Below, piece by piece: positions 14,893 through 64,000 of a stretch of 64,000 bases of DNA. How positions within the stretch are numbered: the first letter of the stretch is position 1; each line of letters begins with the position of its first letter. The stretch lies in assembly GCA_008690995.1 (NCBI GenBank), contig VRMN01000010.1, positions 704,876 through 768,875 on the forward strand, written 5' to 3'. The position numbers were made by a program, and so were the translations under genes. Under the pieces are notes generated by a model, which was not told the DNA's origin, made no database searches, and saw only the letters and a program-made list of their open reading frames with translations. The DNA is from Porphyridium purpureum. Taxonomy: Eukaryota > Rhodophyta > Bangiophyceae > Porphyridiales > Porphyridiaceae.

Positions 14893-17800
14893 TTAAATCG
14901 GCAAATGCACCAGAAACTCACAACAAGATGACTTGAAGTCAAGGTCGAAATCGGCGCTTGACGAACCTCCTGTGACCGATGCACGCACATTGCCCAAATG
15001 AATGTCCAGCATCGAGCTGTCAAGAAATATGGAATCCTCTAATACAAGTCGGAGTGACATTGTGTACGACATAAAGTACTGGGTATTTGCTTGCAACCAC
15101 AGCTGGTTTCCATCTTGTCGTCCCATGATGTACGTGTGTGGACCAATGCAGCCGTGTAATGCTGCTCGACCACTCGCCAGTGTGAGTTCAAATTTCTGCG
15201 ATACATTCGCATTTTCCTCGGTGGTCATGACGAAGAAGCGAGGCCCCAAGGTCAGAACCAAAGCAGTGGTATCCTCGGAATAGCGCCTGACATAACGCGT
15301 CGTGAGCTCTCTGTGCAACGAACGAGGTGCATCTGGATCCTCGAGCGACACTCGTGCAATGGCCTCTGGAATACAATCCAGAGTACCGCAATTGCGTCCG
15401 ACGGTTGCGATCGGGAAAAATTGTCCGTTTCGTGGGAAGAGCTCGCAATGCGCTTTGCCGGATGGCGAAAATCCCAGCTCGTCGCAAAAGAGAGCAGAAT
15501 ACTGTTCGCCCCACTGCCCAGCATGCCGGAAGTGTGGTGCGTCGACGACCAAAACATGACTCTCCTGTAGAATCTCTTCCTTTGACGGGATCATCTGGCG
15601 ATCAAGCAGCGCATTAAAGAAAGGCTCTAGAAAGCGCTTGAACGCCGGCAACAAAAAGCAATCGTCCGAGTAGAGCGCTGGTCCCGGCACAGTTTCCGTA
15701 TCCTTATAAGAGTCACGTAGATTTCCCTTTGCACAAATCTGGCCATCATAACACAAAAGCGTGCACCCCTGGGCGACTCCGAGTAGAAAAACCTGAATCC
15801 AAAAGATGGGCGGCATGTGCGAGCAGCTTCCCTTCCGCAAGCCAAAATTCGGTTCACCCAGGCCTTTGAAGCCAGCATGCTCCCAATACCACGGTTCGTT
15901 CCACATGAGGATCTGCGAACATCGACCAGAAAGCCACAGGCCCATCACCGCGGACATGCTTGTCGGTCCCAAATTCGAAATATTTGTTTTGTGGCCGAGC
16001 ACAATATAATCTGCGTGAGTCTGCAGCAGTCGCTGAAATTCCTCTGGTGATTCCCACCCAAAGAGTGTCCACTTGTGCCATATGTCCTGCCCGTCAGCCA
16101 TCACGTATCTTCGTCCATACTTCCCGCACAACTTAATTGCACGAAAACAACGCGCAGCCGCTTCTGACCACACCGTTGGTTGCTTTGGCGTTCCAAAATG
16201 AAACCCGTACATTAGCTCTCCTGTGCTGAAACCTAGAACAAATGGACTCGTCTGAAACGCCCATTCCATCCTAGCAAGCGATGCAGTCGTCATTTTAAAG
16301 AATACCGGTATGGACCGGCGCGCGGACAACTGGACAATCATGCCGAATGTCGTACGGTCAACGTCACCGATGCGGAAAGCCACGCGGCTGCGAAGCCGTT
16401 CTGGGAATGCATCAAAGAGCTTCTCTAATGCCGAAAAGTTCCTGAGTACCTCCCAGCTGAGCATGGGTGCGTCAGGACCTATACGAATGCTCAGCGGCTG
16501 AAAGGCGTGGTCATTGTTCACGTCAAATCGGCCGAGCGAAGACCACTGGCTCTCAAAACCTTCAAGCGGTTCCTCGATGCGAGCCCGCCAGACGTAGCTG
16601 CCGGGTACAAGAAGCCAATTCTCCGGGAAAAAGCTGTGATAACTGTTTGCACGACATGATCTGCGGTTGGCAAGCTGATAAACTACGTCTTCAGGAGTGA
16701 ATGTGAGACTTGAATCCTTGAATACTTGCACGCGAATCACGAAATGACCGACTGCCGTCTGATTCTGGATTTCATAGCTCACGGCGACGTCGGTTACATT
16801 CGCGTCATTTACGGGGGTCACCAAGCGCGGCGCATCGAGCTTCGGAGGGCCGACGACGAGCTGATGAATCGTCGCCAGCTCGCACTCGGACTCTAAACTT
16901 GCGCTTGCGTCTGCGCGAAAAGTCAATGCGAAAGCATGATTTGCGTGAACCTGCCTCATTTCTTTAGTTCCGTTCTTTTTCGGAAACGGCTTGCGCGTAT
17001 CGCCTCCTGCATACCATCCTGTTTTTGTTGATAAACAGATCTCAATCACATCATCGCTAGTGCTGTCATTGCCGCTGAACTCCGCCAGACATATCCTCGA
17101 GCCGGGATCTGATCCTATCTTTGAAATGAAAAGCCCAGCACTCACCCCGGGAGCTTTGGAGAAGTTCAATCTCAGCTCGGGGCTCCTCTGAAAGTTGCAG
17201 CTTAGCGGCACGTGCAAAGAGGCACCGCTCCTTCCATAAATACTCAACTCGTCGTCGATTCGCACTATCCGAGCGTCGTCGTTACAGGGCAACATTAAGC
17301 AATGCGCATTTGTAATCGATCGAGTCCATATTGCTTGCAAGACCTGTGCCTGGTTGATCCAGGCTGCTTGAGGGCTGGGAAAGGTCCATAACAGCGGGGC
17401 CGCGGATAGAGGAAGTGCTGGTCGTCTCAATGATGTCAAGAAGGCGTGCTGATGAGTGTGAAAAGCGTCCACGCCTGCGGAATAGCATGCAACCCAAAAT
17501 CCGAATATGCTGGATTCCCCACCGGTACGGATGACAGTGGGTAAAGATCCCGACATCAGATCTACGAGCGACATGCGAAGCGCGTTGTTAATCAGATGCC
17601 ATCTTTCCATCTCAGTCGTGTAGAAGTTTCTGTGCTGTGGGCCGCAATGAAAGCGTAATGAGCATACGCCGAGCGCTGGGCATTTGTACTCGTCCTCTCC
17701 GTGGAGCAGCATTTGGCCGCGCCCCTCTGAGTATTTGATCGGAACCTTGTCCTTCACTAGCGCACAACGGGTGCCGTTGGGCCTCTCAACATCAAGCACC

Positions 17801-18632
17801 CAGTGCTGCTTAGTCTTGCCAAAAAGCCGTCGCTCTGGTCTGACAAAGCCGTATGCTGTCAAGGCGAACACGCTTGTTGGAGCGCGCGAGGGCGCTTCGT
17901 TTCGGACGCAAATCTTATACTGGAGAGCGGTGCCGGCCATGGGAATCACGACATGCTCCTGAAGTACAATGTGCGCGAGGAACGGCGCAACGTTAGAGGG
18001 CGCCTCGCGCGTAATAATTACAGTTGTACCTTCCGTTTCGTGGCTTGTCTGAATGCCGCTCACACGCCATTGCTTTGTTTGAATCACTGCCGCAGACCCG
18101 CTTTTGCAACTTCCCTGAAAATCGGCGACTTCTTTTTGCATGGCGACGTGGATCTCGCCGCTAATATCTGACACATACCGCTTTCGCTGGTTTGGCTGAA
18201 GCGAGTTATCTTCCCAGTCGCCGGGCAAAAAGACGGCTTCAAGCCCACTATCGTTACCAAATTGCACCGCGAGAACACCATTATGGACAATAAACCCCCG
18301 ACCATCTCGCGTGGACTCCTCCTGTACAATTCGGTCGAGCATGGTTTCCGCGTGTGCTGCTCGGGAGATTCGAACGCAGTGCGAGCCCGCCGGAACACGA
18401 AGCGCGTACTGATGAGCATCTGGCACATGCCTGATGAGCAGCTCTTCTCCCGAACCCTCGCAAACGGCGCTCAGCGCCGCGCGAGCTGATGTGTCCTTGT
18501 CCTTTCCTTTGCCTTTCGCGCTGCTCGAGGCGTGCAGCGCGGCGTCCAGAGCGTCCTGGCCGATGCCCAGCCACGTCCACCGCGGGCGCCGATCCCTGGC
18601 GGCACGTTGACGTCGAGTCGCGCCACTGCCAT
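14893..18632 (-). CDS. GH98-like glycoside hydrolase (left copy), N-terminal frame broken
   Basis: About 1,245 residues. The C-terminal half carries the GH98 barrel blocks in order: PFVLGFSTGELMYGF (about 16,200-16,245, with the candidate acid Glu), AIKLCGKYGRRYVMADG, ADYIVLGHKTN, MGLWLSGRCSQILMWNEPWYW, MPPIFWIQVFLLGVAQG and MIPSKEEILQESHVLVVDAP. The N-terminal half is beta-rich and of unknown family. Known GH98 enzymes are bacterial endo-beta-galactosidases and xylanases; a role on algal sulfated galactan/xylan walls is speculation. Start: a good ATG at 18632 (MAVARLDVNVPPGIG) is out of frame by one base with the rest, because a C run near 18,586 has three C here and four in the right-arm copy. 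The first ATG in the main frame is 18342. No signal peptide is evident. Convergent with the LRR gene. Confidence 0.65.
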
Positions 18633-19025
18633 TGCACCAACACGCACGCGAGGCAGCCGCGGCTCGCCCCCGCCGCGCGCGGCACGCACCAAACGCGCAG
18701 CTGCGCACGCGCCAGTCGCGCCTCCGACCCCGCTCGGTACAGTGCGCTGTACCTCCCCAACCGCCCGATTAGGGTTTCTGTGATGCGGCACGGAGGTACA
18801 GTGCGGATGCGGTGCGGGGTACAGTGCGGATGCGGTGCGGGGGTACAGTGCGGATGCGGTGCGGGTACAGTGCGGATGCGATGCGGGGGTACAGTGTTTG
18901 TGCGGTGCCGAGCGCGCAGCTCAAATGTCAGTTGGGAGTCCGGTGAGCGCGTGCGCAGCGTGTGTGCAGCCTCAGGGCTGAGGCGCGGGGAAGGGACGCG
19001 CGTGCAGCAGTGGCAGAAAGGCGGG
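18633..19025. promoter_or_regulatory. Divergent promoter, GH98-like / HAD-GPDH
   Basis: 393 GC-rich bases with many GTACAG boxes: GGTACAGT at 18736-18743, CTGTACC at 18748-18754, then five more inside the minisatellite. The right-arm counterpart differs by many indels and substitutions, whereas the flanking coding sequence is almost unchanged. Confidence 0.5.
18794..18912 (+). repeat. Minisatellite, ~22-base unit ggtacagtgcggatgcggtg
   Basis: Five imperfect tandem units of about 21-25 bases, each starting GGTACAGTG and continuing CGGATGCGGTGCGG; the last unit is diverged (GTACAGTGTTTGTGCGGTGC). It lies between divergent start codons and multiplies the GTACAGT promoter-like box. The copy at 61,741-61,866 is degenerate. 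Confidence 0.85.
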
Positions 19026-20915
19026 ATGGAGGGCATGGTGCGGCGCGACGCGTCGCCGGAGGTGCTGCAGCTATGGCGCAACGCAGAGTGCGTCGCCTTC
19101 GACATCGATTGCACCATCACGATCAACGATAGCCTCGACGCGCTGGGCGAGTTTCTGGGCGTCGGCGAGCAGATCCAGAAGATCACAAACGCCGCAATGG
19201 ATGGCCACCTGGATCTCGAGACCGCGCTGCAGCAGAGGCTCGACGCCATGAACCTGACGACTCAGAAGATCCAGGCTTTCGTTAACTCTCATCCCGTCGA
19301 AAAGCGCCTCGTGCCGAACATTCGCACGCTGATTGAGGAGCTCCAGGCGCGCAATGTCGAGGTGTTTCTCATTTCCGGCGGATTTCGTGAGCTCATTTTG
19401 CCAGTCGCAAAGGCGCTGGGCGTCCCAAAGTCCAACATATTTGCGAACCGCTTCGTGTACATGGCCGACGACAACGCCGAGGAGGATCAGGTCAGCAGCC
19501 AAAGTTTGCGCGTCACGACGTTTGACCCAAAGGAGCCGACGTCTCGTGGTGGTGGCAAGCCCGAGGCCATTCGCCGCATACGAGAGAAACGCCCGTATAA
19601 TACCATCGTTATGGTTGGGGATGGCATCACCGACCTCGAAGCTGGGCAGGAAACCGGTGGTGCAGATCTTTTTATTGGGTATGGAGGCGTGGTTCAGCGC
19701 GAAGCAGTCATGAAGGAAGCGGATTGGTTTGTCGATGATCATGCCGTACTTGCGGAAGCTCTTCCTCGTCTCAAGGTTGCCATGATCGGCAGCGGGGCAT
19801 GGGCGTGTGCAAGCATGCGCATGGTGGCTGAAAATGCACGGAGCAGGCGCATTTTCTATCCAAAGGTGAAGATGTGGGTGTTTGAAGAAGAGCACAATGG
19901 TGAAAAGCTGACAGAGCTTATCAACCGGACTCACGAGAATCCGAAATACCTCCCGGGCTGTCATTTTGGGGACAATGTCGAGGCTTGCTCGGATATCGTG
20001 TCTGTAGTACAGGACGCAGATATCCTTATTTTTTGCACGCCACATCAATTCGTGCACCGGCTGTGCCTGCAAATTAAGAGCCATGTCAAACCGGGCTGCT
20101 TTGCTATTTCGCTCATCAAGGGAATGAGAGTGCGGACTGACGGTCCGCAATTGATTTCGACCATGATTCAGCGCACACTGATGGTCGACTGCTCAGTGCT
20201 GATGGGAGCAAATATTGCCAATCAAATTGGACCGGGATCTTTGTGTGAAGCTACCATTGCGTCGAAGAATGTTGAGCACGCGCGTTTGCTCAAATTGCTC
20301 TTCCACACGGAGTATTTCTACATTGACATCATTTCAGACGTTGAAGGTGCCGAAATGAGTGGCACGCTGAAGAATGTAGTAGCTTTGGCGGCCGGCTTTG
20401 CTGACGGCTCTGGGTATCTCGATAACTGCAAGGCCGTCATTCTCAGGGAGGGACTGAAAGAAATGCGCGAGCTGTCAATTCGCCTGTATCCGTCTGTACG
20501 GGAATCCACCTTCTTCGAAGCTTGTGGAGTCGCCGACTTGATTGCCACGTGCTCCGGAGGCCGAAATCACAAGGTCGCGATGGAATTCGCAAAGCGTGGA
20601 GGCTCTGATTCGTTCGATACATTGGAAGCCGAGCTGTTGCACGGTCAGAAACTGCAAGGGACGCTGACGAGCCACGAGGTGCAGTCGTGCTTAAAGATCA
20701 AAGGCTGGGAGGCTGACTTTCCGCTCCTGAAGGTCGTGGACTTGATTGTCAACGGCGTGTACGAACCGGCAGACATCGCGCGATTCCGTGATTTGAACTT
20801 GTTCCCCATTGTCAAGTCGCCGACTGCCGAGGCGTTGGCGGCCTCCGAGGATGCCGCGATGCTGGACTCAATCCAGCGCCGCGTCAGCATTCTGGAGGTC
20901 CGCGGGCTTGTCTGA
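19026..20915 (+). CDS. Fused HAD phosphatase / NAD-dependent glycerol-3-phosphate dehydrogenase (left copy)
   Basis: 629 residues from ATG 19026. Residues 1-~245 are a SerB-like HAD phosphatase: motif I DIDCTIT (D26, D28), motif II LISGGFRE, Lys in GGGKPEA, motif III/IV MVGDGITDLEA. Residues ~248-629 are GPDH: nucleotide-binding GSGAWACA (G255; usual form GSGNWGTA), the catalytic-Lys block GTLKNVVALAAG (K449) and LDNCKAVILREGL. Such fusions in Dunaliella, Chlamydomonas and diatoms reduce dihydroxyacetone phosphate to glycerol-3-phosphate and dephosphorylate it to glycerol in one protein; in a red alga the intermediate would also feed floridoside and lipids. The frame is open upstream to 18489 but only from non-ATG codons in promoter repeat, so 19026 is chosen. 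No clear transit peptide. No length difference from the right copy. Confidence 0.92.
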   Translation: MEGMVRRDASPEVLQLWRNAECVAFDIDCTITINDSLDALGEFLGVGEQIQKITNAAMDGHLDLETALQQRLDAMNLTTQKIQAFVNSHPVEKRLVPNIRTLIEELQARNVEVFLISGGFRELILPVAKALGVPKSNIFANRFVYMADDNAEEDQVSSQSLRVTTFDPKEPTSRGGGKPEAIRRIREKRPYNTIVMVGDGITDLEAGQETGGADLFIGYGGVVQREAVMKEADWFVDDHAVLAEALPRLKVAMIGSGAWACASMRMVAENARSRRIFYPKVKMWVFEEEHNGEKLTELINRTHENPKYLPGCHFGDNVEACSDIVSVVQDADILIFCTPHQFVHRLCLQIKSHVKPGCFAISLIKGMRVRTDGPQLISTMIQRTLMVDCSVLMGANIANQIGPGSLCEATIASKNVEHARLLKLLFHTEYFYIDIISDVEGAEMSGTLKNVVALAAGFADGSGYLDNCKAVILREGLKEMRELSIRLYPSVRESTFFEACGVADLIATCSGGRNHKVAMEFAKRGGSDSFDTLEAELLHGQKLQGTLTSHEVQSCLKIKGWEADFPLLKVVDLIVNGVYEPADIARFRDLNLFPIVKSPTAEALAASEDAAMLDSIQRRVSILEVRGLV

Positions 20916-21172
20916 AAGCGCGGGAGCTGCGCCTGTCCACGCGTCGGACGCCTCCTGCGCTGCACGCGTCCTTCAATTCCGCAGTAAACCAGTCAGAATG
21001 CCCCCCTTCCGAAAACGGGGGTACAGCTTTGGGGACATAGTGTACAGTTATTGGCCTTGCGAGAGATCGCGCTCGGCTCGCTGCGTGGCGGCCGCCGTGG
21101 GAAGCGGGAGCACAGGCACGCCCCATTTGCGTTCAAAGAGCATCATGCACGCGTTCGTTTGTGGAAGCAGTT
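20916..21172 (+). promoter_or_regulatory. Promoter region of the one-helix protein gene
   Basis: 257 bases downstream of HAD-GPDH. GTACAG occurs at 21021-21026 and TGTACAGT at 21041-21048, about 125-150 bases before ATG 21173. Both boxes are conserved in the right arm (59,574-59,601). Confidence 0.5.
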
Positions 21173-21964
21173 ATGGCACGCCCGCGCGCACATCTCGCGC
21201 GGCCAAGCCTCCGCTCATGTGCGCCTCGCAGCCCCCGGGGAAGCAGTCGCGGTCGCGTGGCGAGGACGCGCACCGGCGGAAGGCCGCAAGCCATCATCCG
21301 GCAAGCGCGCACTGCGAAACGCGCTCAAGGCTGCGCTCGCGCTGGCCGCCGTCATGATTACACCCTTGGTGCCGGCGCATCCACGGCGTCGTCAGCGGCG
21401 GCCGCCGCCAGGGCGGCTCGCGCCCTCGAGCGTCGCCAGGGCCAAGTTGCGTTTAGCGTTCCCATCGAGCAGCTCGGCATCAACAAAGAAGAATTCATCG
21501 GCGAGCGCTTCATCAAGTCCAAGAAACTGCTAAAGTATTCAGAAGCAGAGGAAGAGATTCTTCACCTCGAGGACATGGAGATGGACTCAACCTGGATGAG
21601 GTCCGCTCGACTGACAGGCCTTGCAGTGTTCGTGGCCGGCGGCATGACGGTGATGGGTGGAACGGGCAAGATTTGGGATACCTTTGCCGCTTCTCAAGAG
21701 GAAAAAGAGCGTGAAGAAGAATTGCGCATCACGGGTCGCTTCATTGACACCACAGCCAATCGTATGGACGAAGACGAGAAGCTCAAAAAGAAGGCTGAAC
21801 AGCGAAAGCGACTTGAAGAGCAGTTTTCCTCCATTGAAAGTGATGACGCTGGGGAGTCCCCGAAAGAGAAAAAAAGTGGTCCCTCTGAGCCTCCTGGTGC
21901 TTCCCCTAGCGGTGGCGTGGATTTCAGCGCTCTTGATCGCTTACTCGGCGATGACGACGAGTAG
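21173..21964 (+). CDS. Small protein with one membrane segment, probable transit peptide (left copy)
   Basis: 263 residues from ATG 21173. Residues 1-~95 are Arg/Ala/Ser-rich without acidic residues (MARPRAHLARPSLRSCAPR), like a plastid or mitochondrial transit peptide. The mature part has an acidic stretch (EAEEEILHLEDMEMDS), one hydrophobic segment (ARLTGLAVFVAGGMTVMGG), a charged coiled-coil region (EEKEREEELR; EDEKLKKKAEQRKRLEEQ) and an acidic tail ending LDRLLGDDDE. I recognise no family. A plastid membrane protein with a soluble coiled coil is the best guess. In the right arm the N-terminal frame differs through several indels, so the transit region is unreliable. Confidence 0.65.
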   Translation: MARPRAHLARPSLRSCAPRSPRGSSRGRVARTRTGGRPQAIIRQARTAKRAQGCARAGRRHDYTLGAGASTASSAAAAARAARALERRQGQVAFSVPIEQLGINKEEFIGERFIKSKKLLKYSEAEEEILHLEDMEMDSTWMRSARLTGLAVFVAGGMTVMGGTGKIWDTFAASQEEKEREEELRITGRFIDTTANRMDEDEKLKKKAEQRKRLEEQFSSIESDDAGESPKEKKSGPSEPPGASPSGGVDFSALDRLLGDDDE

Positions 21965-22164
21965 ATTAGAAAGCTTTCGCGTTTAAGTAGTTCTGGGTGC
22001 CCAAGCCCTCGAAGAAAAGATACGTGGCCAAAAAATGTGCGATTTCGCAATCGTACGCTTCTACTCCGCCGGATCGTGTGCGGCTGATCATCTCAAGCAC
22101 ATGATGTAGGCGGTGCTCTTACAGGGTAAGGTCTTCCTTCGTCCATCTATAATTAAAGCAGTTA

Positions 22165-23331
22165 TCAAAAATTAATGCGGTTCAGAAGCGGGATCCGATC
22201 CTCCGCCTCGTCATCCACAATTTCGTGTTCAGTAACATTCAAATCAGGGTCGCCATCATCGCTCGAAATCCCTGAGGTCATCTTGCTGAATGATCGAAGC
22301 CAACTCTTCTGCAGCATGCCCTTCATATTCATTCTCAAGGAATTCGTCGACTTCACAGAACTCTTTCTTGACATATGCCCCGTCGATGCGGTCACCACAC
22401 GCTCGCCATACGGCCGGTCCGTTCGGTCAGTCTTATTGCGTGAGAATGAGTGTTCTCGGGAACGCGACCGACTCAAGCTCTTTTTTCTCTGACCCACGGC
22501 GTACTGGTCGTAGTCCGTATCACATACTCCCGCATCTCCCCACACTAAACGAGAAGACGAAATCTCTGCCTTGCCCAAGCGTGTGTTGGCATCGAGTTCG
22601 ACGGCTTGTATTTCTTCGTCTCTGCAAGGCCGCGCTTCACCACCGTCCAAGCTCTCGAACAAAACTCGATCACAGCTTTCATGACGATTGCGGAGGTTTC
22701 CAGACCCGAAATCTCGTGAAAGATAACTCCTACGTGGTCCTTCTCCATCGCTACGCTCCTCCGTCTCGTCGGACTTTGCAACCCAAGTCGGAGCACATGC
22801 GTCGAAGAGCCGTTCCTCTGACGGAGACACAGGCATAATCACCAAGGATCGACTTTCTCTCTTTTCACTGACGACCGCCTGAATTTCGGGTTCCGACACG
22901 AGCGGGTTCTTTCTCATCTTCTCCACCGTCGCCACTCTATGTCCCGGTCGCACAACTTGATCACGGGGCACGCTCAAGGTCTGTCGTTTTGAGATCTGCA
23001 ACATGTCTGTGATGCTTGTCCGCCTCTCCGGTGCAACATGAAAGGTCAAATTCTTCAGCTTTCCAGTTTCATAGCTTATGTCGCGGTCAGAGTACTGTGC
23101 GCGACCCGTCGAAAGACTCTGGCTTTTGGGGCGTGCAAAGTCTGGCGGCTGCTGTTGGCGCTGCGTTTCGTTCACAATGCCGACAAGGGATTCCGCTGGC
23201 GGCCTAGAGTCGGCACGTTCCTTCGACAGTGCATTTGCACGTTTGCTCCGTTCCTTCTCGGTTCCCGACGTCTGCGTGCTTTTCTTCGATGGCCCAAAAC
23301 GAACGAATGGCTTTGTTGGTTTGCGCTCCAT
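22165..23331 (-). CDS. Hypothetical basic, Ser/Arg-rich protein (left copy)
   Basis: 388 residues from ATG 23331; an in-frame TAA lies five codons upstream, so this start is firm for an unspliced message. The protein is mostly polar and predicted disordered: basic N-terminus (MERKPTKPFVRFGPSKKS), mixed-charge middle, an RS-like patch (KKSLSRSRSREHSFSRNK), a hydrophobic/basic motif (MKGMLQKSWLRSFSKM) and an acidic tail (SDDGDPDLNVTEHEIVDDEAEDR). No known domain. The RS-like patch and many Ser-Arg sites would fit a phosphoregulated nuclear or cytoskeletal adaptor, but that is speculation. The two arms code the same protein. Convergent with the one-helix gene. Confidence 0.65.
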   Translation of the reverse strand: MERKPTKPFVRFGPSKKSTQTSGTEKERSKRANALSKERADSRPPAESLVGIVNETQRQQQPPDFARPKSQSLSTGRAQYSDRDISYETGKLKNLTFHVAPERRTSITDMLQISKRQTLSVPRDQVVRPGHRVATVEKMRKNPLVSEPEIQAVVSEKRESRSLVIMPVSPSEERLFDACAPTWVAKSDETEERSDGEGPRRSYLSRDFGSGNLRNRHESCDRVLFESLDGGEARPCRDEEIQAVELDANTRLGKAEISSSRLVWGDAGVCDTDYDQYAVGQRKKSLSRSRSREHSFSRNKTDRTDRPYGERVVTASTGHMSRKSSVKSTNSLRMNMKGMLQKSWLRSFSKMTSGISSDDGDPDLNVTEHEIVDDEAEDRIPLLNRINF

Positions 23332-24827
23332 TTCAAAGTCAATTTCTTACGAGAAGGCGGTGTGACACGTTCTGTTATGTTGCTATCGTTGATGAGCCCC
23401 ACGCTGCCTGCCTGTGCGATTTCCCGCAACCTGAGCAGCTACCGAGTCCCAAGGACAAGGCGCGCGTTCCTCTTTGGCCGCAAAATTGGGTAAGATATAG
23501 CGCTGCTGCTGACCACGGTGTAAAAAGACAGTCAATCTTCCACCTGACCTTTGGCGCGTTCACCACAACGCGCTGGAATCTCTGCTCTGATATCCACCAC
23601 GGAAAGCAAAGACCGGTCCAACGGTGGGTTGAGACTTTCGACAAAATGTTCAACAGTTGGTCACGGCCGTCACTTGCATTGAGCGTGTCTCCGCGCGCTG
23701 CGCCGAGGGACGCTGAGCCCTTCCCTTTTGGAATGGATATTTGAATCGCTGGGAAATCTCCGTGCACCTTGGCTGCAGGACACGACCGGACACACAACCC
23801 GGCCCGTCGAAAATCTGAGCCACGCGCCTGCAATGTCTTGGAGGTTGAACGTTGTCCCGTCACGCGAGCTCCTACTTCTCGAAGGCTGCGACACCCGGCC
23901 TCAGGCACGTGGGTAACCTCACGTACCCGCCGGCTTCTTGTTGTGCCAGGGCGCCTAGGAGCAGAGTGAAGGTCGACCAACTGTGACCGCCCCCCTTTGT
24001 AGGAGCCCGAACCTCATTGACCGCACAGAGGCCCGACCTCATCGCACTTGGCGGACAATTCGTGTGTGATCAAATGAGTTCAACGTTCGAATAGTGCCAC
24101 CCACCCGATGCGCAGGTGATGCGCACTCCTCAGCAACGCAGCCGCACAGCCGTGCATGCCGGACGCGCAACTACGCGCCGTGCGAAAGCCCCAACACGCT
24201 CTGCGTGCGGTGCGCGCGTGCCTACGCACACGGCACGTGGCCAGAGCGTAACGAGCATGTGGTTCGCGCGCGCCCACTCCCGACCGTTGCAAGTCGCGCC
24301 CGGGGCGCGTGCGCCCCGACGCCCGGTGCGCGCGTGCATTTTGAAACGGTCACGCCTGCCCGCGATGCGCGCGCGGCGCCCGCCACGCAGCAGCCGACAA
24401 ACATTTCACGGATTTTCAAATATTTGAAACTGACGCTTTACACCGCGCGTGGGCACCCGATGCGGCGGGCGTTCGTGTGCGCCCGTGGCTGCTGCTGCTG
24501 CCGCCGCGACGTCGTGCTGGCTCCATCCTCTGGTGTCCCGGCACAAAAATGCTGCGACGATCAGAGCGACACTGACACGCGCGGCATGTAAGCGGTGGAC
24601 GCAGTGCCCCTCATCCACACACTGTTCGCATGGAACAAACCCGCGCCGCAGCTCTGCAACGGATCCGCATTCATCACGAAGGCTATGTTTTAGTTCTTCT
24701 TGCGGGGTTCGCGAGGCGGGCAGACGTAGCGCTCACTCAGGCATACACAGGTTTATTTTTCTCTCCGGCAAATGGCATGGAACGACACCGCCTCCCCGAG
24801 CAGGCGCTCTTCATTTCCAAAGAAATA
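23332..24827. other. Long 5' flank of the Ser/Arg-rich gene, with a variable GC-rich block
   Basis: 1.5 kb. 23,375-23,980 is open on the minus strand (201 codons) but has no ATG; it could be a 5' exon or chance. About 24,100-24,600 is GC-rich and differs strongly from the right arm, while 23,332-24,090 and 24,630-24,827 match closely. No RNA gene seen. Confidence 0.4.
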
Positions 24828-51862: not shown

Positions 51863-53026
51863 ATGGCGCAGCAAAGCCCGCAAACGCGCGGCGGTATGTC
51901 TGGTTGCATGCCGCGACTCAAAGAGCTCATCGGCGACCTGCGGTACGCGGACTACTCGTTTCGGAAATGGATGTTGCAAAATGCTCAGCTCATGAGCTTG
52001 CTCGAGGACGTCACTCGCGCGTTGGCAGTAGTAATGCCTGGCAAACTCTCCGAGCTTACTGCTGAAAGCTGTCATTTTCTTATGGCACTTTTACACCTCT
52101 ATCGCGATGCTCCGGTGATTCACAAACAGCGTCATGCGTTTCCGCTGCATGCGGTTGTGCTTGGTGCGCTCCATATTCTCAAAAGCGCGCAATTGCTCAT
52201 CGAGATGCTAACTCGTCGAATTTACCGAAAGCAAGACAGGAACCGTATTCTCATTGTCCTCGTCATTGTTGAATTACTCAAGCTGATTTTGCGCTCATCT
52301 CTACTCTTCGGATTGCGACGGTGGCCTTTTCGCGCTCAGCAGCTGCTGACGGTGTCCGATGAAAGCTTTGAACCGGATTCAGGATCGAGTGCCCCAGCAG
52401 CATCGAGGTCTGGTCTGTGCCGCTGCAGAATCCATTCGAGTCACATCCGCACGGGCCGTTTATCAGGCAAGCGATTTCTTACTCTCGAGGCCGCGGGTTT
52501 GAAGGATGGTTTTGCTGAGGTGGGATCGAACAGTCAAGGCGAATATCAAGGACGGAACCAGCCAGAAGATACAAATGCATCTTCTAGCCCTTGCAATGAG
52601 TGTCTTGGTCACATGCACGATGACGGTTTTGGCGGACGCAATCACGAAGTTGTGGTCTCGGACCGGTCACTGCCGTGGAATGGCTTGATTGGAGAACTTT
52701 GCCATGTGTCTCGCCCGTCGGTAGAACTATTGCTGATGATGAAATTTGGTCCAATGTCTTGGATTCCATGGCTCGTCGCCCTCGGAATTGATGTATCCGG
52801 GATCAGCTTGGTGCCAAGCGAGTCAGATGCCGATCGCGCGGAGAAGCTGCGGCGCAAACTTGCACTTGTCTACTTTCTCGCACGAAATCCCGTTTACAGC
52901 AGAGTCATTCGTCGCCATGTGCTAGGTCGCCTGACCAAGCTGCCTCTGGCTGGTGGTTTGATCAGTGGTGGTGTCGAAGTGCTGGATGCGATTCAAGCCT
53001 ACTGGTTTTATGTTAGTGCGTCCTAA
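51863..53026 (+). CDS. PEX16: PEX16 (right copy)
   Basis: 387 residues from ATG 51863, same translation as the left copy at 27,586-28,749: MPGKLSELTAESCHFLMALL, KQDRNRILIVLVIVELLK, WIPWLVALGIDVSG and KLRRKLALVYFLARNPVYSR. Peroxisomal membrane protein import factor. If both arms are real, the gene is duplicated with no coding change. Confidence 0.88.
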   Translation: MAQQSPQTRGGMSGCMPRLKELIGDLRYADYSFRKWMLQNAQLMSLLEDVTRALAVVMPGKLSELTAESCHFLMALLHLYRDAPVIHKQRHAFPLHAVVLGALHILKSAQLLIEMLTRRIYRKQDRNRILIVLVIVELLKLILRSSLLFGLRRWPFRAQQLLTVSDESFEPDSGSSAPAASRSGLCRCRIHSSHIRTGRLSGKRFLTLEAAGLKDGFAEVGSNSQGEYQGRNQPEDTNASSSPCNECLGHMHDDGFGGRNHEVVVSDRSLPWNGLIGELCHVSRPSVELLLMMKFGPMSWIPWLVALGIDVSGISLVPSESDADRAEKLRRKLALVYFLARNPVYSRVIRRHVLGRLTKLPLAGGLISGGVEVLDAIQAYWFYVSAS

Positions 53027-53087: not shown

Positions 53088-54224
53088 TCAGTGGGAAGAC
53101 AGGGAGCTTTCTGCGGTTTCCGCGGCACCTTTCGGTGTGCAGGTACCAGTACTACCTGATCCCATCCGACGTCTCTTGGTGTGGACCGTCCCCGCCGCAG
53201 AACCGGTCTTAGTGCCGTTGCTGCCGTTTCCTTCGGTGGCTTGTTTTGCTTTGCTTGCAAATGAGGGCCATTCACGCTGAAATCGATGCTTCAAATCACG
53301 GAATCGCGGGTCTGTGCTGTGCTCGGCAAACTCATTCTTGAATTCCAGCAAAACCTCATCCGTTTCAAAGAGAGAGCACCGAAGGTGGCTCGGAAATCTG
53401 GACGGTCGCCGGAGCCACCGAACAAATACTTGCTCGACAAACTGCTCCCAGCGATCCGTGCCTGACTGCGGTGATTTGGTTTTCACGTTCTGGTCAACAA
53501 GCCAGCTTTCGCTGAAGCTCGCGAATGAACGATGCGGAGGCACTGATGAAGTGCAAGAACAGTCCTGTCCGGGCGAACAGAGCACGCACCGCAGAATTTC
53601 TTCCGTGTTCCAGCGCCAGAACGCGTCTTCAACTCGTAATCGCTCTGAATAGTTCTCAACTGCGACGGCCGCTGTCGGCGGAGCCGCCAGCACCGCCGGC
53701 CGCGAGCTCGTCCCGCCGGCTTTGAGTGCACTTATTCCAGACGGGGGCACTGGCGTATTCAAAAGCTCGAAGCACAAGGTCTCCGTAAACTCTCGACCCA
53801 CGGTGCCATGTTCCAAAAGCACGTGAAGTTGCAGCACGACCACATTTCCCGGAAAGGCGTAGCTTTCGACCCAGCCCCACGCGCCGCCAGGAAGAGGTTC
53901 TGTGCGGGCAGCAAAACGCGAGCCCATGAGACGTTGCTGATGAAAGTCGGGCGGTGCAAGCAGGCGCTTTCTGTTGGATGACCGCGGCGCGGCCAAGTGA
54001 AAGAGCACGCCTGCGATGTAGTTCTCGCTGCGCGCGTGCGCCGGGACGAACATAGCGACCTGCTCCGCGGCGACGCTGGACCTATGCAAGAAGATGGCGT
54101 TCTTTTCGCGACACACGAGACCGCTCCGCAGCGCCGGCACCGGTGAGTGCGCATCTGTCACGAGCCAGCGCAGAACGTCGTCCTGCCGCAGCACGTCCTC
54201 GTGCAACGCTCGAATGTGGTCCAT
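53088..54224 (-). CDS. Hypothetical protein, possibly nuclear (right copy)
   Basis: 378 residues from ATG 54224; same translation as 26,388-27,524, with the CVLCSPGQDCSC segment and the HTKRRRMGSG basic cluster. The upstream open frame differs from the left copy because of indels, which supports the MDHIRAL start as the real one. Confidence 0.65.
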   Translation of the reverse strand: MDHIRALHEDVLRQDDVLRWLVTDAHSPVPALRSGLVCREKNAIFLHRSSVAAEQVAMFVPAHARSENYIAGVLFHLAAPRSSNRKRLLAPPDFHQQRLMGSRFAARTEPLPGGAWGWVESYAFPGNVVVLQLHVLLEHGTVGREFTETLCFELLNTPVPPSGISALKAGGTSSRPAVLAAPPTAAVAVENYSERLRVEDAFWRWNTEEILRCVLCSPGQDCSCTSSVPPHRSFASFSESWLVDQNVKTKSPQSGTDRWEQFVEQVFVRWLRRPSRFPSHLRCSLFETDEVLLEFKNEFAEHSTDPRFRDLKHRFQREWPSFASKAKQATEGNGSNGTKTGSAAGTVHTKRRRMGSGSTGTCTPKGAAETAESSLSSH

Positions 54225-54547
54225 AGTCACCCGGCCGCACGCGCCGCGCAGTGAACCACAACAGGCGAGGACGAGAGGCGCCGCAGTTGCCGGCGTCCGC
54301 GCGCGGTTTAGCACCTTTGCCCGCGGCAGGAGGTTGGCGTTGCAGCGAACGCTGGTTTGCGGCGCCGCACGTGCCGAGCGCCCTCGACCAGAGGTCAATT
54401 TACTCGTACAGCGCGCGCACTCACTGTACCTTCTGGGCGTTCTGGCCGCCCGCGTTTTGGCGCGAAGCGAACAGAGGAGGGCGGCGCGTGGGAGCGCAAC
54501 GCTAGAACGGTCGCGATGCAAGGGCGGAAGACAGAGGATCTCGCTGG
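54225..54547. promoter_or_regulatory. Divergent promoter, DCC1 / hypothetical gene (right copy)
   Basis: 323 bases. Boxes near 54,400-54,430 correspond to the left pair; one is altered by an extra base (CTCGTACAG on the plus strand). Many single-base indels compared with 26,070-26,387. Confidence 0.45.
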
Positions 54548-55789
54548 ATGACGACGCACGCGCACGCATTGCCCGGAGGCAGTGCTACGAGCGCCTCTGT
54601 GGTGCCCGACAACGACGCATGGGTGCATGAGGCGCTGCGCGGCCAATTCCGCGGCTGGTCATGTTCGCGCGTGCATTTTGCATACCCGCTGGACACGCGC
54701 CGCTCGTATCTTGTCGAGCTTCCGCAGCATGTGCTCAGCGCCCTCGAAGAACGAGAGGAAATTCAGTTCAAAGGCGCGCAGGCAAGCACGGGTGCGGTGC
54801 TTTGCACGCACGAGCGGACATATGCGCTGCAATTTCGGGAGAACTCGAACGCACTGTTTCTCCTGGACCAGTCTGCGTCTGCTTCGTTGGAGAACGGAGC
54901 GAGAGAACCTCCTGCTCTGTCGCTGCCCATTCGTATGGCCATGCATGGCTCCGTCGAGCTCACCCACACCGCCCCCCATGTGCGACCGTTGCGCGACCTA
55001 TTGGCGCCTCACATTCTGAAAAGTGGCGATGGCCTGCGTCAACCATCAAATGAGTCGTCTTCTTCATCTGCAGATGGACTGGGAATAGAATGGTCCATCA
55101 TCGAAGAGCAAGTGCTGGCGAGCGCTGCTGAGATTCGATCAACTTTGAAAGAACTATGCGCTGTCGAGCGGAACTCTGGGGTTTGGATACGTCTGGACCC
55201 CGACCTGGTGCTCGAGACGCTTTCCTTGCTCTTTGACACAATTATTCTGCAGCAGTGGTGCTCTGCTGCCTTCCCACGTGACGAGCTTGAATCAGAAATG
55301 GCGAAGGACTGTGCGCACGAACTTGTGCGCGCTGTCGTAGGTCTGTTCTGCACCCCGAGTGAGCGGCATACAGGCTGGGAGCAGTGGGACAGAGATCGTT
55401 TGCTTCGATTTTCAGGAGAACATTTACTGGAGCAGCGGTGCAGCACTAGTCCTGACGAGGAGCTTGACTTTATGTCAGCTTGGGGAAAGCTCCTGCCGGA
55501 CGACGTGAAACCAGAGCTCGGTACACTGAGGGGCTTGTTTGTGATGGATCGAACCAGGCTGAAGTATACCCCGTACTGGCGACTCTCCATGGAGCCTGCG
55601 ATGCGCTTTTCGCAGCTCTTTGCGCTGCAGTCCTCGTGGTCACGCTCGGAAATTGAGCCATTCTTGAAAGATCTGTGCGGTGAGAACGAAGGACATTTGG
55701 ATCAAATGCTGCGACGCCATGCAAAACTCGTCCATGGTCTGGGCGGCCAGAACTACGTAGCACGCGCACCCGTAATTCCTTCTAGATGA
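54548..55789 (+). CDS. DCC1: DCC1 (right copy)
   Basis: 413 residues from ATG 54548. Same domains as the left copy (VLCTHERTYAL; RGLFVMDRT; WSRSEIEPFLKDLCGE). Two replacements are visible: Met for Ile in YWRLSMEPAM and Ser for Phe three residues from the end. Clamp-loader/cohesion subunit. Confidence 0.88.
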   Translation: MTTHAHALPGGSATSASVVPDNDAWVHEALRGQFRGWSCSRVHFAYPLDTRRSYLVELPQHVLSALEEREEIQFKGAQASTGAVLCTHERTYALQFRENSNALFLLDQSASASLENGAREPPALSLPIRMAMHGSVELTHTAPHVRPLRDLLAPHILKSGDGLRQPSNESSSSSADGLGIEWSIIEEQVLASAAEIRSTLKELCAVERNSGVWIRLDPDLVLETLSLLFDTIILQQWCSAAFPRDELESEMAKDCAHELVRAVVGLFCTPSERHTGWEQWDRDRLLRFSGEHLLEQRCSTSPDEELDFMSAWGKLLPDDVKPELGTLRGLFVMDRTRLKYTPYWRLSMEPAMRFSQLFALQSSWSRSEIEPFLKDLCGENEGHLDQMLRRHAKLVHGLGGQNYVARAPVIPSR

Positions 55790-57292: not shown

Positions 57293-58459
57293 ATGGAGCG
57301 CAAACCAACAAAGCCATTCGTTCGTTTTGGGCCATCGAAGAAAAGCACGCAGACGTCGGGAACCGAGAAGGAACGGAGCAAACGTGCAAATGCACTGTCG
57401 AAGGAACGTGCCGACTCTAGGCCGCCAGCGGAATCCCTTGTCGGCATTGTGAACGAAACGCAGCGCCAACAGCAGCCGCCAGACTTTGCACGCCCCAAAA
57501 GCCAGAGTCTTTCGACGGGTCGCGCACAGTACTCTGACCGCGACATAAGCTATGAAACTGGAAAGCTGAAGAATTTGACCTTTCATGTTGCACCGGAGAG
57601 GCGGACAAGCATCACAGACATGTTGCAGATCTCAAAACGACAGACCTTGAGCGTGCCCCGTGATCAAGTTGTGCGACCGGGACATAGAGTGGCGACGGTG
57701 GAGAAGATGAGAAAGAACCCGCTCGTGTCGGAACCCGAAATTCAGGCGGTCGTCAGTGAAAAGAGAGAAAGTCGATCCTTGGTGATTATGCCTGTGTCTC
57801 CGTCAGAGGAACGGCTCTTCGACGCATGTGCTCCGACTTGGGTTGCAAAGTCCGACGAGACGGAGGAGCGTAGCGATGGAGAAGGACCACGTAGGAGTTA
57901 TCTTTCACGAGATTTCGGGTCTGGAAACCTCCGCAATCGTCATGAAAGCTGTGATCGAGTTTTGTTCGAGAGCTTGGACGGTGGTGAAGCGCGGCCTTGC
58001 AGAGACGAAGAAATACAAGCCGTCGAACTCGATGCCAACACACGCTTGGGCAAGGCAGAGATTTCGTCTTCTCGTTTAGTGTGGGGAGATGCGGGAGTAT
58101 GTGATACGGACTACGACCAGTACGCCGTGGGTCAGAGAAAAAAGAGCTTGAGTCGGTCGCGTTCCCGAGAACACTCATTCTCACGCAATAAGACTGACCG
58201 AACGGACCGGCCGTATGGCGAGCGTGTGGTGACCGCATCGACGGGGCATATGTCAAGAAAGAGTTCTGTGAAGTCGACGAATTCCTTGAGAATGAATATG
58301 AAGGGCATGCTGCAGAAGAGTTGGCTTCGATCATTCAGCAAGATGACCTCAGGGATTTCGAGCGATGATGGCGACCCTGATTTGAATGTTACTGAACACG
58401 AAATTGTGGATGACGAGGCGGAGGATCGGATCCCGCTTCTGAACCGCATTAATTTTTGA
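57293..58459 (+). CDS. Hypothetical basic, Ser/Arg-rich protein (right copy)
   Basis: 388 residues from ATG 57293, same translation as 22,165-23,331, including the RS-like patch KKSLSRSRSREHSFSRNK and acidic tail. Function unknown. Confidence 0.65.
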   Translation: MERKPTKPFVRFGPSKKSTQTSGTEKERSKRANALSKERADSRPPAESLVGIVNETQRQQQPPDFARPKSQSLSTGRAQYSDRDISYETGKLKNLTFHVAPERRTSITDMLQISKRQTLSVPRDQVVRPGHRVATVEKMRKNPLVSEPEIQAVVSEKRESRSLVIMPVSPSEERLFDACAPTWVAKSDETEERSDGEGPRRSYLSRDFGSGNLRNRHESCDRVLFESLDGGEARPCRDEEIQAVELDANTRLGKAEISSSRLVWGDAGVCDTDYDQYAVGQRKKSLSRSRSREHSFSRNKTDRTDRPYGERVVTASTGHMSRKSSVKSTNSLRMNMKGMLQKSWLRSFSKMTSGISSDDGDPDLNVTEHEIVDDEAEDRIPLLNRINF

Positions 58460-58659: not shown

Positions 58660-59268
58660 CTACTCGTCGTCATCGCCGAGTAAGCGATCAAGAGCGCTGA
58701 AATCCACGCCACCGCTAGGGGAAGCACCAGGAGGCTCAGAGGGACCACTTTTTTTCTCTTTCGGGGACTCCCCAGCGTCATCACTTTCAATGGAGGAAAA
58801 CTGCTCTTCAAGTCGCTTTCGCTGTTCAGCCTTCTTTTTGAGCTTCTCCTCTTCGTCCATACGATTGGCTGTGGTGTCAATGAAGCGACCCGTGATGCGC
58901 AATTCTTCTTCACGCTCTTTTTCCTCTTGAGAAGCGGCAAAGGTATCCCAAATCTTGCCCGTTCCACCCATCACCGTCATGCCGCCGGCCACGAACACTG
59001 CAAGGCCTGTCAGTCGAGCGGACCTCATCCAGGTTGAGTCCATCTCCATGTCCTCGAGGTGAAGAATCTCTTCCTCTGCTTCTGAATACTTTAGCAGTTT
59101 CTTGGACTTGATGAAGCGCTCGCCGATGAATTCTTCTTTGTTGATGCCGAGCTGCTCGATGGGAACGCTAAACGCAACTTGGCCCTGGCGACGCTCGAGG
59201 GCGCGAGCCGCCCTGGCGGCGCCGCCGCTGACGACGCCGTGGATGCGCCGGCACCAAGGTGTAATCAT
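58660..59268 (-). CDS. One-membrane-segment protein (right copy), N-terminus altered
   Basis: From ATG 59268 (MITPWCRRIHGVVSGG) 202 residues are read; the frame is open upstream to 59568 without an ATG. From RAARALERRQGQVAFSVPI on it equals the left protein apart from Glu for Asp near residue 140 (MDEEEK). Upstream, the ATG used in the left arm (21173) falls in another frame here because of several indels around 59,215-59,360. Either the transit peptide is lost in this copy or the sequence contains errors. Confidence 0.55.
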   Translation of the reverse strand: MITPWCRRIHGVVSGGAARAARALERRQGQVAFSVPIEQLGINKEEFIGERFIKSKKLLKYSEAEEEILHLEDMEMDSTWMRSARLTGLAVFVAGGMTVMGGTGKIWDTFAASQEEKEREEELRITGRFIDTTANRMDEEEKLKKKAEQRKRLEEQFSSIESDDAGESPKEKKSGPSEPPGASPSGGVDFSALDRLLGDDDE

Positions 59269-59703
59269 GACGGCGGCCAGCGCGAGCGCAGCCTTGAGCG
59301 CGTTTCGCAGTGCGCGCTTGCCGGATGATGGTTTGCGGCTCTTCGCCGGGTGCGTCCTCCACGCGACCGCGACTGCTTCCCCGGGGGCTGCGAGGCGCAC
59401 ATGAGCGGAGGCTTGGCCGCGCGAGATGTGCGCGCGGGCGTGCCATAACTGCTTCCACAAACGAACGCGTGCATGATGCTCTTTGAACGCAAATGGGGCG
59501 TGCCTGTGCTCCCGCTTCCCACGGCGGCCGCCACGCAGCGAGCCGAGCGCGATCTCTCGCAAGGCCAATAACTGTACACTATGTCCCCAAAGCTGTACCC
59601 CCGTTTTCGGAAGGGGGGCATTCTGACTGGTTTACTGCGGAATTGAAGGACGCGTGCAGCGCAGGAGGCGTCCGACGCGTGGACAGGCGCAGCTCCCGCG
59701 CTT

Positions 59704-61593
59704 TCAGACAAGCCCGCGGACCTCCAGAATGCTGACGCGGCGCTGGATTGAGTCCAGCATCGCGGCATCCTCGGAGGCCGCCAACGCCTCGGCAGTCGGC
59801 GACTTGACAATGGGGAACAAGTTCAAATCACGGAATCGCGCGATGTCTGCCGGTTCGTACACGCCGTTGACAATCAAGTCCACGACCTTCAGGAGCGGAA
59901 AGTCAGCCTCCCAGCCTTTGATCTTTAAGCACGACTGCACCTCGTGGCTCGTCAGCGTCCCTTGCAGTTTCTGACCGTGCAACAGCTCGGCTTCCAATGT
60001 ATCGAACGAATCAGAGCCTCCACGCTTTGCGAATTCCATCGCGACCTTGTGATTTCGGCCTCCGGAGCACGTGGCAATCAAGTCGGCGACTCCACAAGCT
60101 TCGAAGAAGGTGGATTCCCGTACAGACGGATACAGGCGAATTGACAGCTCGCGCATTTCTTTCAGTCCCTCCCTGAGAATGACGGCCTTGCAGTTATCGA
60201 GATACCCAGAGCCGTCAGCAAAGCCGGCCGCCAAAGCTACTACATTCTTCAGCGTGCCACTCATTTCGGCACCTTCAACGTCTGAAATGATGTCAATGTA
60301 GAAATACTCCGTGTGGAAGAGCAATTTGAGCAAACGCGCGTGCTCAACATTCTTCGACGCAATGGTAGCTTCACACAAAGATCCCGGTCCAATTTGATTG
60401 GCAATATTTGCTCCCATCAGCACTGAGCAGTCGACCATCAGTGTGCGCTGAATCATGGTCGAAATCAATTGCGGACCGTCAGTCCGCACTCTCATTCCCT
60501 TGATGAGCGAAATAGCAAAGCAGCCCGGTTTGACATGGCTCTTAATTTGCAGGCACAGCCGGTGCACGAATTGATGTGGCGTGCAAAAAATAAGGATATC
60601 TGCGTCCTGTACTACAGACACGATATCCGAGCAAGCCTCGACATTGTCCCCAAAATGACAGCCCGGGAGGTATTTCGGATTCTCGTGAGTCCGGTTGATA
60701 AGCTCTGTCAGCTTTTCACCATTGTGCTCTTCTTCAAACACCCACATCTTCACCTTTGGATAGAAAATGCGCCTGCTCCGTGCATTTTCAGCCACCATGC
60801 GCATGCTTGCACACGCCCATGCCCCGCTGCCGATCATGGCAACCTTGAGACGAGGAAGAGCTTCCGCAAGTACGGCATGATCATCGACAAACCAATCCGC
60901 TTCCTTCATGACTGCTTCGCGCTGAACCACGCCTCCATACCCAATAAAAAGATCTGCACCACCGGTTTCCTGCCCAGCTTCGAGGTCGGTGATGCCATCC
61001 CCAACCATAACGATGGTATTATACGGGCGTTTCTCTCGTATGCGGCGAATGGCCTCGGGCTTGCCACCACCACGAGACGTCGGCTCCTTTGGGTCAAACG
61101 TCGTGACGCGCAAACTTTGGCTGCTGACCTGATCCTCCTCGGCGTTGTCGTCGGCCATGTACACGAAGCGGTTCGCAAATATGTTGGACTTTGGGACGCC
61201 CAGCGCCTTTGCGACTGGCAAAATGAGCTCACGAAATCCGCCGGAAATGAGAAACACCTCGACATTGCGCGCCTGGAGCTCCTCAATCAGCGTGCGAATG
61301 TTCGGCACGAGGCGCTTTTCGACGGGATGAGAGTTAACGAAAGCCTGGATCTTCTGAGTCGTCAGGTTCATGGCGTCGAGCCTCTGCTGCAGCGCGGTCT
61401 CGAGATCCAGGTGGCCATCCATTGCGGCGTTTGTGATCTTCTGGATCTGCTCGCCGACGCCCAGAAACTCGCCCAGCGCGTCGAGGCTATCGTTGATCGT
61501 GATGGTGCAATCGATGTCGAAGGCGACGCACTCTGCGTTGCGCCATAGCTGCAGCACCTCCGGCGACGCGTCGCGCCGCACCATGCCCTCCAT
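59704..61593 (-). CDS. Fused HAD phosphatase / glycerol-3-phosphate dehydrogenase (right copy)
   Basis: 629 residues from ATG 61593, same translation as 19,026-20,915 by inspection, with DIDCTIT, VGDGITDLEA, GSGAWACA and GTLKNVVALAAG. Here the upstream frame is not open far, which supports the MEGMVRRDAS start chosen in the left arm. Confidence 0.92.
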   Translation of the reverse strand: MEGMVRRDASPEVLQLWRNAECVAFDIDCTITINDSLDALGEFLGVGEQIQKITNAAMDGHLDLETALQQRLDAMNLTTQKIQAFVNSHPVEKRLVPNIRTLIEELQARNVEVFLISGGFRELILPVAKALGVPKSNIFANRFVYMADDNAEEDQVSSQSLRVTTFDPKEPTSRGGGKPEAIRRIREKRPYNTIVMVGDGITDLEAGQETGGADLFIGYGGVVQREAVMKEADWFVDDHAVLAEALPRLKVAMIGSGAWACASMRMVAENARSRRIFYPKVKMWVFEEEHNGEKLTELINRTHENPKYLPGCHFGDNVEACSDIVSVVQDADILIFCTPHQFVHRLCLQIKSHVKPGCFAISLIKGMRVRTDGPQLISTMIQRTLMVDCSVLMGANIANQIGPGSLCEATIASKNVEHARLLKLLFHTEYFYIDIISDVEGAEMSGTLKNVVALAAGFADGSGYLDNCKAVILREGLKEMRELSIRLYPSVRESTFFEACGVADLIATCSGGRNHKVAMEFAKRGGSDSFDTLEAELLHGQKLQGTLTSHEVQSCLKIKGWEADFPLLKVVDLIVNGVYEPADIARFRDLNLFPIVKSPTAEALAASEDAAMLDSIQRRVSILEVRGLV

Positions 61594-62041: not shown

Positions 62042-64000
62042 CTCGACGTCAACGTGCTGCCAGGGATCGGCGCCCCGCGGTGGACGTGGCTGGGCATCGG
62101 CCAGGACGCTCTGGACGCCGCGCTGCACGCCTCGAGCAGCGCGAAAGGCAAAGGAAAGGACAAGGACACATCAGCTCGCGCGGCGCTGAGCGCCGTTTGC
62201 GAGGGTTCGGGAGAAGAGCTGCTCATCAGGCATGTGCCAGATGCTCATCAGTACGCGCTTCGTGTTCCGGCGGGCTCGCACTGCGTTCGAATCTCCCGAG
62301 CAGCACACGCGGAAACCATGCTCGACCGAATTGTACAGGAGGAGCCCACGCGAGATGGTCGGGGGTTTATTGTCCATAATGGTGTTCTCGCGGTGCAATT
62401 TGGTAACGATAGTGGGCTTGAAGCCGTCTTTCTGCCCGGCGACTGGGAAGATAACTCGCTTCAGCCAAACCAGCGAAAGCGGTATGTGTCAGATATTAGC
62501 GGCGAGATCCACGTCGCCATGCAAAAAGAAGTCGCCGATTTTCAGGGAAGTTGCAGAAGCGGGTCTGCGGCGGTAATTCAAACAAAGCAGTGGCGTGTGA
62601 GCGGCATTCAGACAAGCCACGAAACGGAATGTACAACTGTAATTATTACGCGCGAGGCGCCCTCTAACGTTGCGCCGTTCCTCGCGCACATTGTACTTCA
62701 GGAGCATGTCGTGATTCCCATGGCCGGCACCGCTCTCCAGTATAAGATTTGCGTCCGAAACGAAGCGCCCTCGCGCGCTCCAACAAGCGTGTTCGCCTTG
62801 ACAGCATACGGCTTTGTCAGACCAGAGCGACAGCTTTTTGGCAAGACTAAGCAGCACTGGGTGCTTGATGTTGAGAGGCCCAACGGCACCCGTTGTGCGC
62901 TAGTGAAGGACAAGGTTCCGATCAAATACTCAGAGGGGCGCGGCCAAATGCTGCTCCACGGAGAGGACGAGTACAAATGCCCAGCGCTCGGCGTATGCTC
63001 ATTACGCTTTCATTGCGGCCCACAGCACAGAAACTTCTACACGACTGAGATGGAAAGATGGCATCTGATTAACAACGCGCTTCGCATGTCGCTCGTAGAT
63101 CTGATGTCGGGATCTTTACCCACTGTCATCCGTACCGGTGGGGAATCCAGCATATTCGGATTTTGGGTTGCATGCTATTCCGCAGGCGTGGACGCTTTTC
63201 ACACTCATCAGCACGCCTTCTTGACATCATTGAGACGACCAGCACTTCCTCTATCCGCGGCCCCGCTGTTATGGACCTTTCCCAGCCCTCAAGCAGCCTG
63301 GATCAACCAGGCACAGGTCTTGCAAGCAATATGGACTCGATCGATTACAAATGCGCATTGCTTAATGTTGCCCTGTAACGACGACGCTCGGATAGTGCGA
63401 ATCGACGACGAGTTGAGTATTTATGGAAGGAGCTGTGCCTCTTTGCACGTGCCGCTAAGCTGCAACTTTCAGAGGAGCCCCGAGCTGAGATTGAACTTCT
63501 CCAAAGCTCCCGGGGTGAGTGCTGGGCTTTTCATTTCAAAGATAGGATCAGATCCCGGCTCGAGGATATGTCTGGCGGAGTTCAGCGGCAATGACAGCGC
63601 TAGCGATGGCGTGATTGAGATCTGTCTATCAACAAAAACAGGATGGTATGCAGGAAGCGATACGCGCAAGCCGTTTCCGAAAAAGAACGGAACTAAAGAA
63701 ATGAGGCAGGTTCACGCAAATCATGCTTTCGCATTGACTTTTCGCGCAGACGCAAGCGCAAGTTTAGAGTCCGAGTGCGAGCTGGCGACGATTCATCAGC
63801 TCGTCGTCGGCCCTCCGAAGCTCGATGCGCCGCGCTTGGTGACCCCCGTAAATGACGCGAATGTAACCGACGTCGCCGTGAGCTATGAAATCCAGAATCA
63901 GACGGCAGTCGGTCATTTCGTGATTCGCGTGCAAGTATTCAAGGATTCAAGTCTCACATTCACTCCTGAAGACGTAGTTTATCAGCTTGCCAACCGCAGA
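62042..64000 (+). CDS. GH98-like protein (right copy), start unclear, 3' end cut by window edge
   Basis: In frame from 62042 (LDVNVLPGIGAPRWTWLGIGQ) to the right edge; only the N-terminal, non-catalytic half is inside the window. The four-C run restores the frame that is broken in the left arm, but the left start ATG is replaced here (GCATCGTAGTGG for GCAATGGCAGTGG); the first in-frame ATG is 62318. Several amino-acid changes from the left copy (e.g. EEPTRDG for EESTRDG; ASDGVIEI for TSDDVIEI) make this the most diverged gene of the pair. Confidence 0.55.

Follow-up and report, generated by a model that had tools for sequence, protein, structure and literature searches.

Inverted 18-kb arms around a copia nest at a contig end of the Porphyridium purpureum assembly: probable joining of two copies of one locus through repeats

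Genes and extent of the inverted arms

The window analysed here, a 64,000-nucleotide stretch of Porphyridium purpureum DNA (positions 704876–768875 of contig C22), carries nine genes that recur in mirror order towards its right end. Five of the nine score above the Pfam curated cut-off (a HAD-GPDH fusion, DCC1, PEX16, a PPR protein and an S5 protein), with a sub-threshold match only for the first gene and no match for the three others. The first gene, an ORF of 1271 amino acids on the minus strand (14893–18708) with a weak, sub-threshold GH98-like match, found no relative at an E-value of 0.001 in a protein search, and its mirror copy is truncated at the contig end. Next to it lie a fusion of a HAD phosphatase with an NAD glycerol-3-phosphate dehydrogenase (18489–20915, plus; mirror 59704–61593, minus) and two ORFs without Pfam match, at 21161–21964 (plus; mirror 58660–59568, minus) and 22165–23331 (minus; mirror 57293–58459, plus, identical). 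These are followed by DCC1 (PF09724, E 2.2e-55; 24828–26069, minus; mirror 54548–55789, plus), a third ORF without Pfam match (26247–27524, plus; mirror 53088–54569, minus), PEX16 (PF08610, E 1.3e-30; 27586–28926, minus; mirror 51686–53026, plus), the PPR protein (28826–31393, plus; mirror 49217–51526, minus) and, nearest the centre, the member of the Ribosomal protein S5 family called uS5m in the preliminary description (31544–33280, plus; mirror 47330–49066, minus).

BLAST alignment of the window with itself pairs 16660–34955 with 64000–45655 on the minus strand at 98.6% over 18,406 columns, a likeness far above chance level, with a longest run free of differences of 3,828 bases and coordinate sums of mirrored points moving from 80,660 at the outer end to 80,610 at the inner. 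The left arm, unique DNA up to a solo LTR (LTR a), occupies 16660–34647 on the plus strand and the right arm, its mirror copy to the contig end, 45963–64000 on the minus strand; the centre between them (34,956–45,654) measures 10,699 bases and consists of copia elements and two unlike spacers, U1 and U2. The preliminary description had claimed an inverted pair of at least 18 kb, the same coordinate sums and a retroelement centre of about 10.7 kb with two unlike spacers, all of which are borne out; of the nine inverted genes that it listed, eight are open in both arms, the ninth (14893–18708) being cut by the contig end in the right arm.

Contig C22 is 768,875 bases long and its end coincides with that of the window, so the second arm never reaches a flank of its own and no outer boundary is visible where it stops. 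When the genome (46 contigs, 22,164,627 bases) was searched with positions 6000–18000, a long second copy was found from 16660 onward only, the remaining matches being short; positions 28000–34600 have two genome copies, both on C22.

Copia elements, spacers and flanks of the centre

From the left arm the sequence passes through LTR a, U1, a broken copia element, a junction (J), an inverted full-length copia element, U2 and a further LTR (LTR e) into the right arm. LTR a (34648–34954, plus) has GAAAT on both sides, read as the original flank of the arm, and U1 (34956–35681) is found only here, as one copy in the genome search. The broken element (element 1; 35694–39791, plus) comprises a 5′ LTR and body, is flanked by AGAAT on its 5′ side and breaks off at its base 4098; at J (39791/39792) it meets the end of an inverted LTR. 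The full-length element (39792–44762, minus) matches an element of contig C43 (element C) and has unequal flanks, CAAAG on the U2 side and CATAA on the element 1 side. U2 (44765–45654) is 100% identical to C43:4623262–4624151. LTR e (45656–45962, minus) bears hybrid flanks: on the arm side GAAAT, the flank of LTR a, and on the U2 side GTGAC, as at C43 element B. The stretch made up of LTR e, U2 and the full-length element matches C43:4622936–4629126 in a single alignment of 6,191 columns at 99.6%, and the C43 elements A, B and C have equal flanks (TTTCC, GTGAC and CAAAG, respectively). Both spacers are AT-rich, with 39.5% (U1) and 41.2% (U2) GC against 56.9% in positions 1–33280.

The copia elements at the joins are about 4.97 kb long and 99.9% alike. 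Like known Ty1/copia LTR retrotransposons they combine LTRs (here 307–325 bases) with 5-base target-site duplications and an integrase upstream of RVT_2, as read in the two ORF pieces scanned; what sets them apart is their distribution, with at least 36 body matches (two of them distant, at 70–71%), among the matches listed, falling in 14 clusters on 13 of the 46 contigs.

A simple nested insertion was rejected as the source of the inverted element pair, as the inner element lacks the equal flanks expected from insertion into element 1. A single base distinguishes LTR e from LTR a, and the three C43-type LTRs compared carry the base of LTR e; a crossover point inside LTR e cannot be fixed, because a short-type solo LTR of C45 has the same two marker bases.

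Differences between the arms

Sequence differences between the arms are concentrated in five G+C-rich patches, at 18560–19030 (77.8% identical columns), 21240–21420 (94.5%), 24190–24480 (79.3%), 26160–26400 (89.2%) and 28960–29350 (86.6%), whose 1,575 bases hold 121 of the 147 substitutions and all 152 gap columns. The other 16,721 left-arm bases hold 26 substitutions (21 transitions; 1.6 per kb) and no indels, with clusters of substitutions at 17.0–18.3 and 34.5–34.6 kb; in the first gene, 8 of 13 changed codons alter the residue. Counted per 100-base window, inter-arm indels are present in 18 of the 52 windows with a GC content of at least 60% and in none of the 131 below 60%. GC is lower in the right arm than in the left in all five patches, and from left to right G changes to A 42 times and A to G 22 times.

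Raw long-read sequence fills gaps in short-read coverage, and Nanopore errors favour G to A. The G+C-linked indels suit uncorrected Nanopore sequence in a hybrid assembly, and the patches resemble long-read sequence left uncorrected by the short reads, which is their probable cause; the substitutions outside the patches may be alleles.

Conflicting joins on other contigs

Junction J recurs at C9:28929, where 229 of 229 bases to the left and 372 of 372 to the right are equal, and at C30:1447, where 346 of 347 bases agree to the left and a whole LTR (325 bases) to the right before the sequences part. Its inverted side leads to a different place each time: on C22 to the flank of C43 element C; on C9 to the spacer that separates elements A and B on C43 (372 bases, all identical), together with the 5′ flank of element B; and on C30 to the flank of a C45 solo LTR, as judged from the 12 bases read beyond the LTR, the next C30 element sharing a 14-base 3′ flank with a C45 element. 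If those contigs are right, the inner joins of the window are contradicted elsewhere, U2 and element C standing with intact flanks on C43 and J having other partners.

Both flanks were read for 27 LTR units. In 18 of them the two 5-base flanks agree; the nine units with unequal flanks lie on C22, C9, C30 and C11, at two per contig, and on C3, with one. In two of the nine, C9:19299 and C3:129996, the flanks differ by one base only, and these could be mutated true pairs. The 27 units are part of the LTR matches found, further matches lying outside the count; units that offered only one read or usable flank were omitted, namely those on C17, the broken element 1, the outer element of C18 and the units at C9:34272, C11:1359702 and C30:7109. 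As a separate observation, C9:24831–34844 is occupied by a copia element, bounded by CTTTT on both outer sides, that encloses an inverted C43-like piece consisting of element B, the A–B spacer and a short-type LTR.

A second redundant contig end

A redundant contig end beside a copia nest is not unique to C22, since the start of C45 is a redundant copy of C3. The two were compared at points up to the copia nest, within the first 3 kb of C45 and beyond 16.7 kb, and agree at every point compared, with identities of about 98–99% between C45:1–29165 and C3:111320–129995. At the contig end, C45:1–3000 differs from C3:111320–114320 by 47 substitutions and one indel, and further in C45:22565–23654 matches both C3:128599–129686 and C11:1358608–1359697. 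Three copia insertions of C45 are absent from C3, one empty site being read directly and the other two deduced from alignments whose pieces share six bases on C3. Past the last insertion, to the right, C45 and C3 run together for 305 bases until a C3 element with unequal flanks, beyond which no match between C45 and C3 was found. The pair has the appearance of two haplotypes with copia insertions of recent date, the contig having switched within the nest; the insertion differences point to recent activity of copia and to the presence of two haplotypes in the strain. The style of difference is unlike that of the C22 arms, which differ mainly in G+C-rich patches: C45 and C3 differ by scattered substitutions (about 1.6%) and lack a G+C-rich error patch, their five windows with at least 60% GC reaching only 65%.

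Origin of the inverted arms

Haplotig or repeat-mediated misjoins occur in hybrid assemblies of heterozygous genomes. The paper on the P. purpureum CCMP1328 assembly (Lee et al. 2019; PMC6811547) describes a MaSuRCA assembly of Illumina and Nanopore reads of 22.1 Mb in 52 contigs, the largest of 5.7 Mb, based on older MiSeq reads and on 1.0 Gb of Nanopore reads with an N50 of 14.9 kb; the assembly analysed here totals 22.16 Mb in 46 contigs, one of them 5,717,864 bases long. The accession VRMN01 is named in PMC10866757, and a walnut genome paper (PMC7238675) covers MaSuRCA super-reads, mega-reads and the removal of heterozygous duplicates. The literature search returned no usable statement on the ploidy of P. 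purpureum; according to PMC10943592, a sexual cycle is unreported, yet meiosis genes are present.

The inverted pair is probably a misjoin of a second copy of the locus, probably the other haplotype and less probably a second sampling of the same one, and not a real gene duplication. Both arms would represent one 18-kb stretch of chromosome, read twice, and the assembler would have attached the second reading, inverted, through near-identical copia repeats. Inside these repeats it may have left the C22 nest for that of C43, returning through an LTR into the other copy of the arm, while the G+C-rich patches would be long-read errors lacking short-read correction and the scattered substitutions allelic. 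The joins do lie within repeats long and alike enough to confuse assembly, and the path crosses two repeat units whose flanks come from different loci and then ends with the contig, although a real exchange between LTRs would leave such flanks likewise. Similar cases occur in the same assembly, at the C45/C3 end and in the unequal flanks on C9, C30, C11 and C3. Known haplotig or repeat misjoins share the redundant contig ends, the joins in near-identical repeats and a junction common to several contigs; the redundant end here differs from the usual case in being inverted onto its own contig, where it mimics a palindrome.

The preliminary description had left the choice between a palindromic duplication and a joining of two haplotypes or loci by way of LTRs that they share. 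The mismatched flanks at both joins, the match of U2 and its neighbouring element to C43, the presence of J on three contigs and the C45/C3 case favour the joined haplotypes or loci and disfavour the duplication. Its exclusion of a simple single-read fold-back holds, the unlike spacers being beyond the reach of such an artefact, while the proposed doubling of DCC1, PEX16, uS5m and others as a real gene duplication is unsupported. Several observations count against the misjoin. Hybrid flanks are also the product of true LTR recombination; the 26 substitutions outside the patches look real and fit a diverged true copy as well as an allele; eight residue changes in 13 codons are more than two functional alleles under strong selection should show; the style of difference in the C45/C3 pair is not that of the C22 arms; and most of the arm windows with at least 60% GC (34/52) have no indel.

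An improbable, though not negligible, alternative is a real exchange in which LTR a recombined with the 3′ LTR of element B on C43, present in one haplotype or in part of the culture, in which case the succession of arm, LTR e, U2 and element C would be true and J alone made by the assembler. LTR e does combine the 5′ flank of LTR a with the 3′ flank of C43 element B, as after one crossover, C43 is collinear through U2 and element C, and the differences between the arms include SNP-like sites. Such an exchange would have a reciprocal product, an element B LTR beside U1, which was not found in the genome, U1 occurring there once, and the conflicts on C9, C30, C11 and C3 would each require a rearrangement of their own.

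Palindromic segmental duplications can arise by LTR-mediated recombination and share with the window high-identity inverted arms around repeats, whereas here no outer boundary is seen, the inner joins are contradicted and no unique sequence lies past the second arm. That C22 is a true isochromosome or an inverted pericentromeric duplication, formed by LTR recombination at a copia-filled centromere and carrying at least eight genes twice (DCC1, PEX16 and uS5m among them), is rated very improbable, and a real inverted duplication around the nest (for example an isochromosome at a copia-rich centromere) of which the outer part collapsed in assembly, leaving a second arm of about one read length, is rated slightly lower again. 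In favour of the latter, the left end of C22 has a repeat common near contig ends, such that the contig may span from telomere to nest; copia is confined to one cluster on each of 12 contigs, with two on C43; and the 18-kb second arm is near the read N50 reported in PMC6811547. The duplication would also need U2 and element C to have been copied from C43 besides the arm, and it is opposed by a J common to three contigs and by a parallel redundant contig end (C45/C3) that lacks an inversion.

A true duplication in which shared promoters diverged fast and genes were kept identical, for instance by gene conversion, is hardly credible: most differences do cluster beside gene starts, mainly between divergently read genes, but promoter-specific divergence is rejected because the patches follow G+C, with no indels in the 131 windows under 60%, and because the stretch 33,281–34,504, without an ORF of 150 amino acids, is identical between the arms, the uniformly lower right-arm GC of the five patches likewise speaking against it.

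If the misjoin reading is correct, gene counts and synteny near the copia nests of this assembly would be wrong, with DCC1, PEX16, uS5m and others counted twice and furnished with false promoter variants. Comparison of target-site flanks flags such suspect joins without recourse to reads, and the same data point to two haplotypes and to copia nests as candidate centromeres, both of which are testable.

Copia nests and contig ends

The copia clusters lie on C1, C2, C3, C9, C11, C17, C18, C22, C28, C30, C43 (in two places), C44 and C45, counts that are lower bounds, and the nests are candidate centromeres; among the papers listed by a literature search, none appeared to deal with Porphyridium centromeres. 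At the opposite end of C22, bases 1–8444 match stretches of C13, C41, C40 and C33 at 95–100%, and a repeat of about 465 bases from the C22 start occurs near the ends of many contigs. This end repeat may be subtelomere-like, and part of the matching could be redundancy. C43 may consist of two chromosomes joined at their ends; the 465-base repeat is also found inside that contig, at 4.245–4.254 Mb, between its two copia nests.
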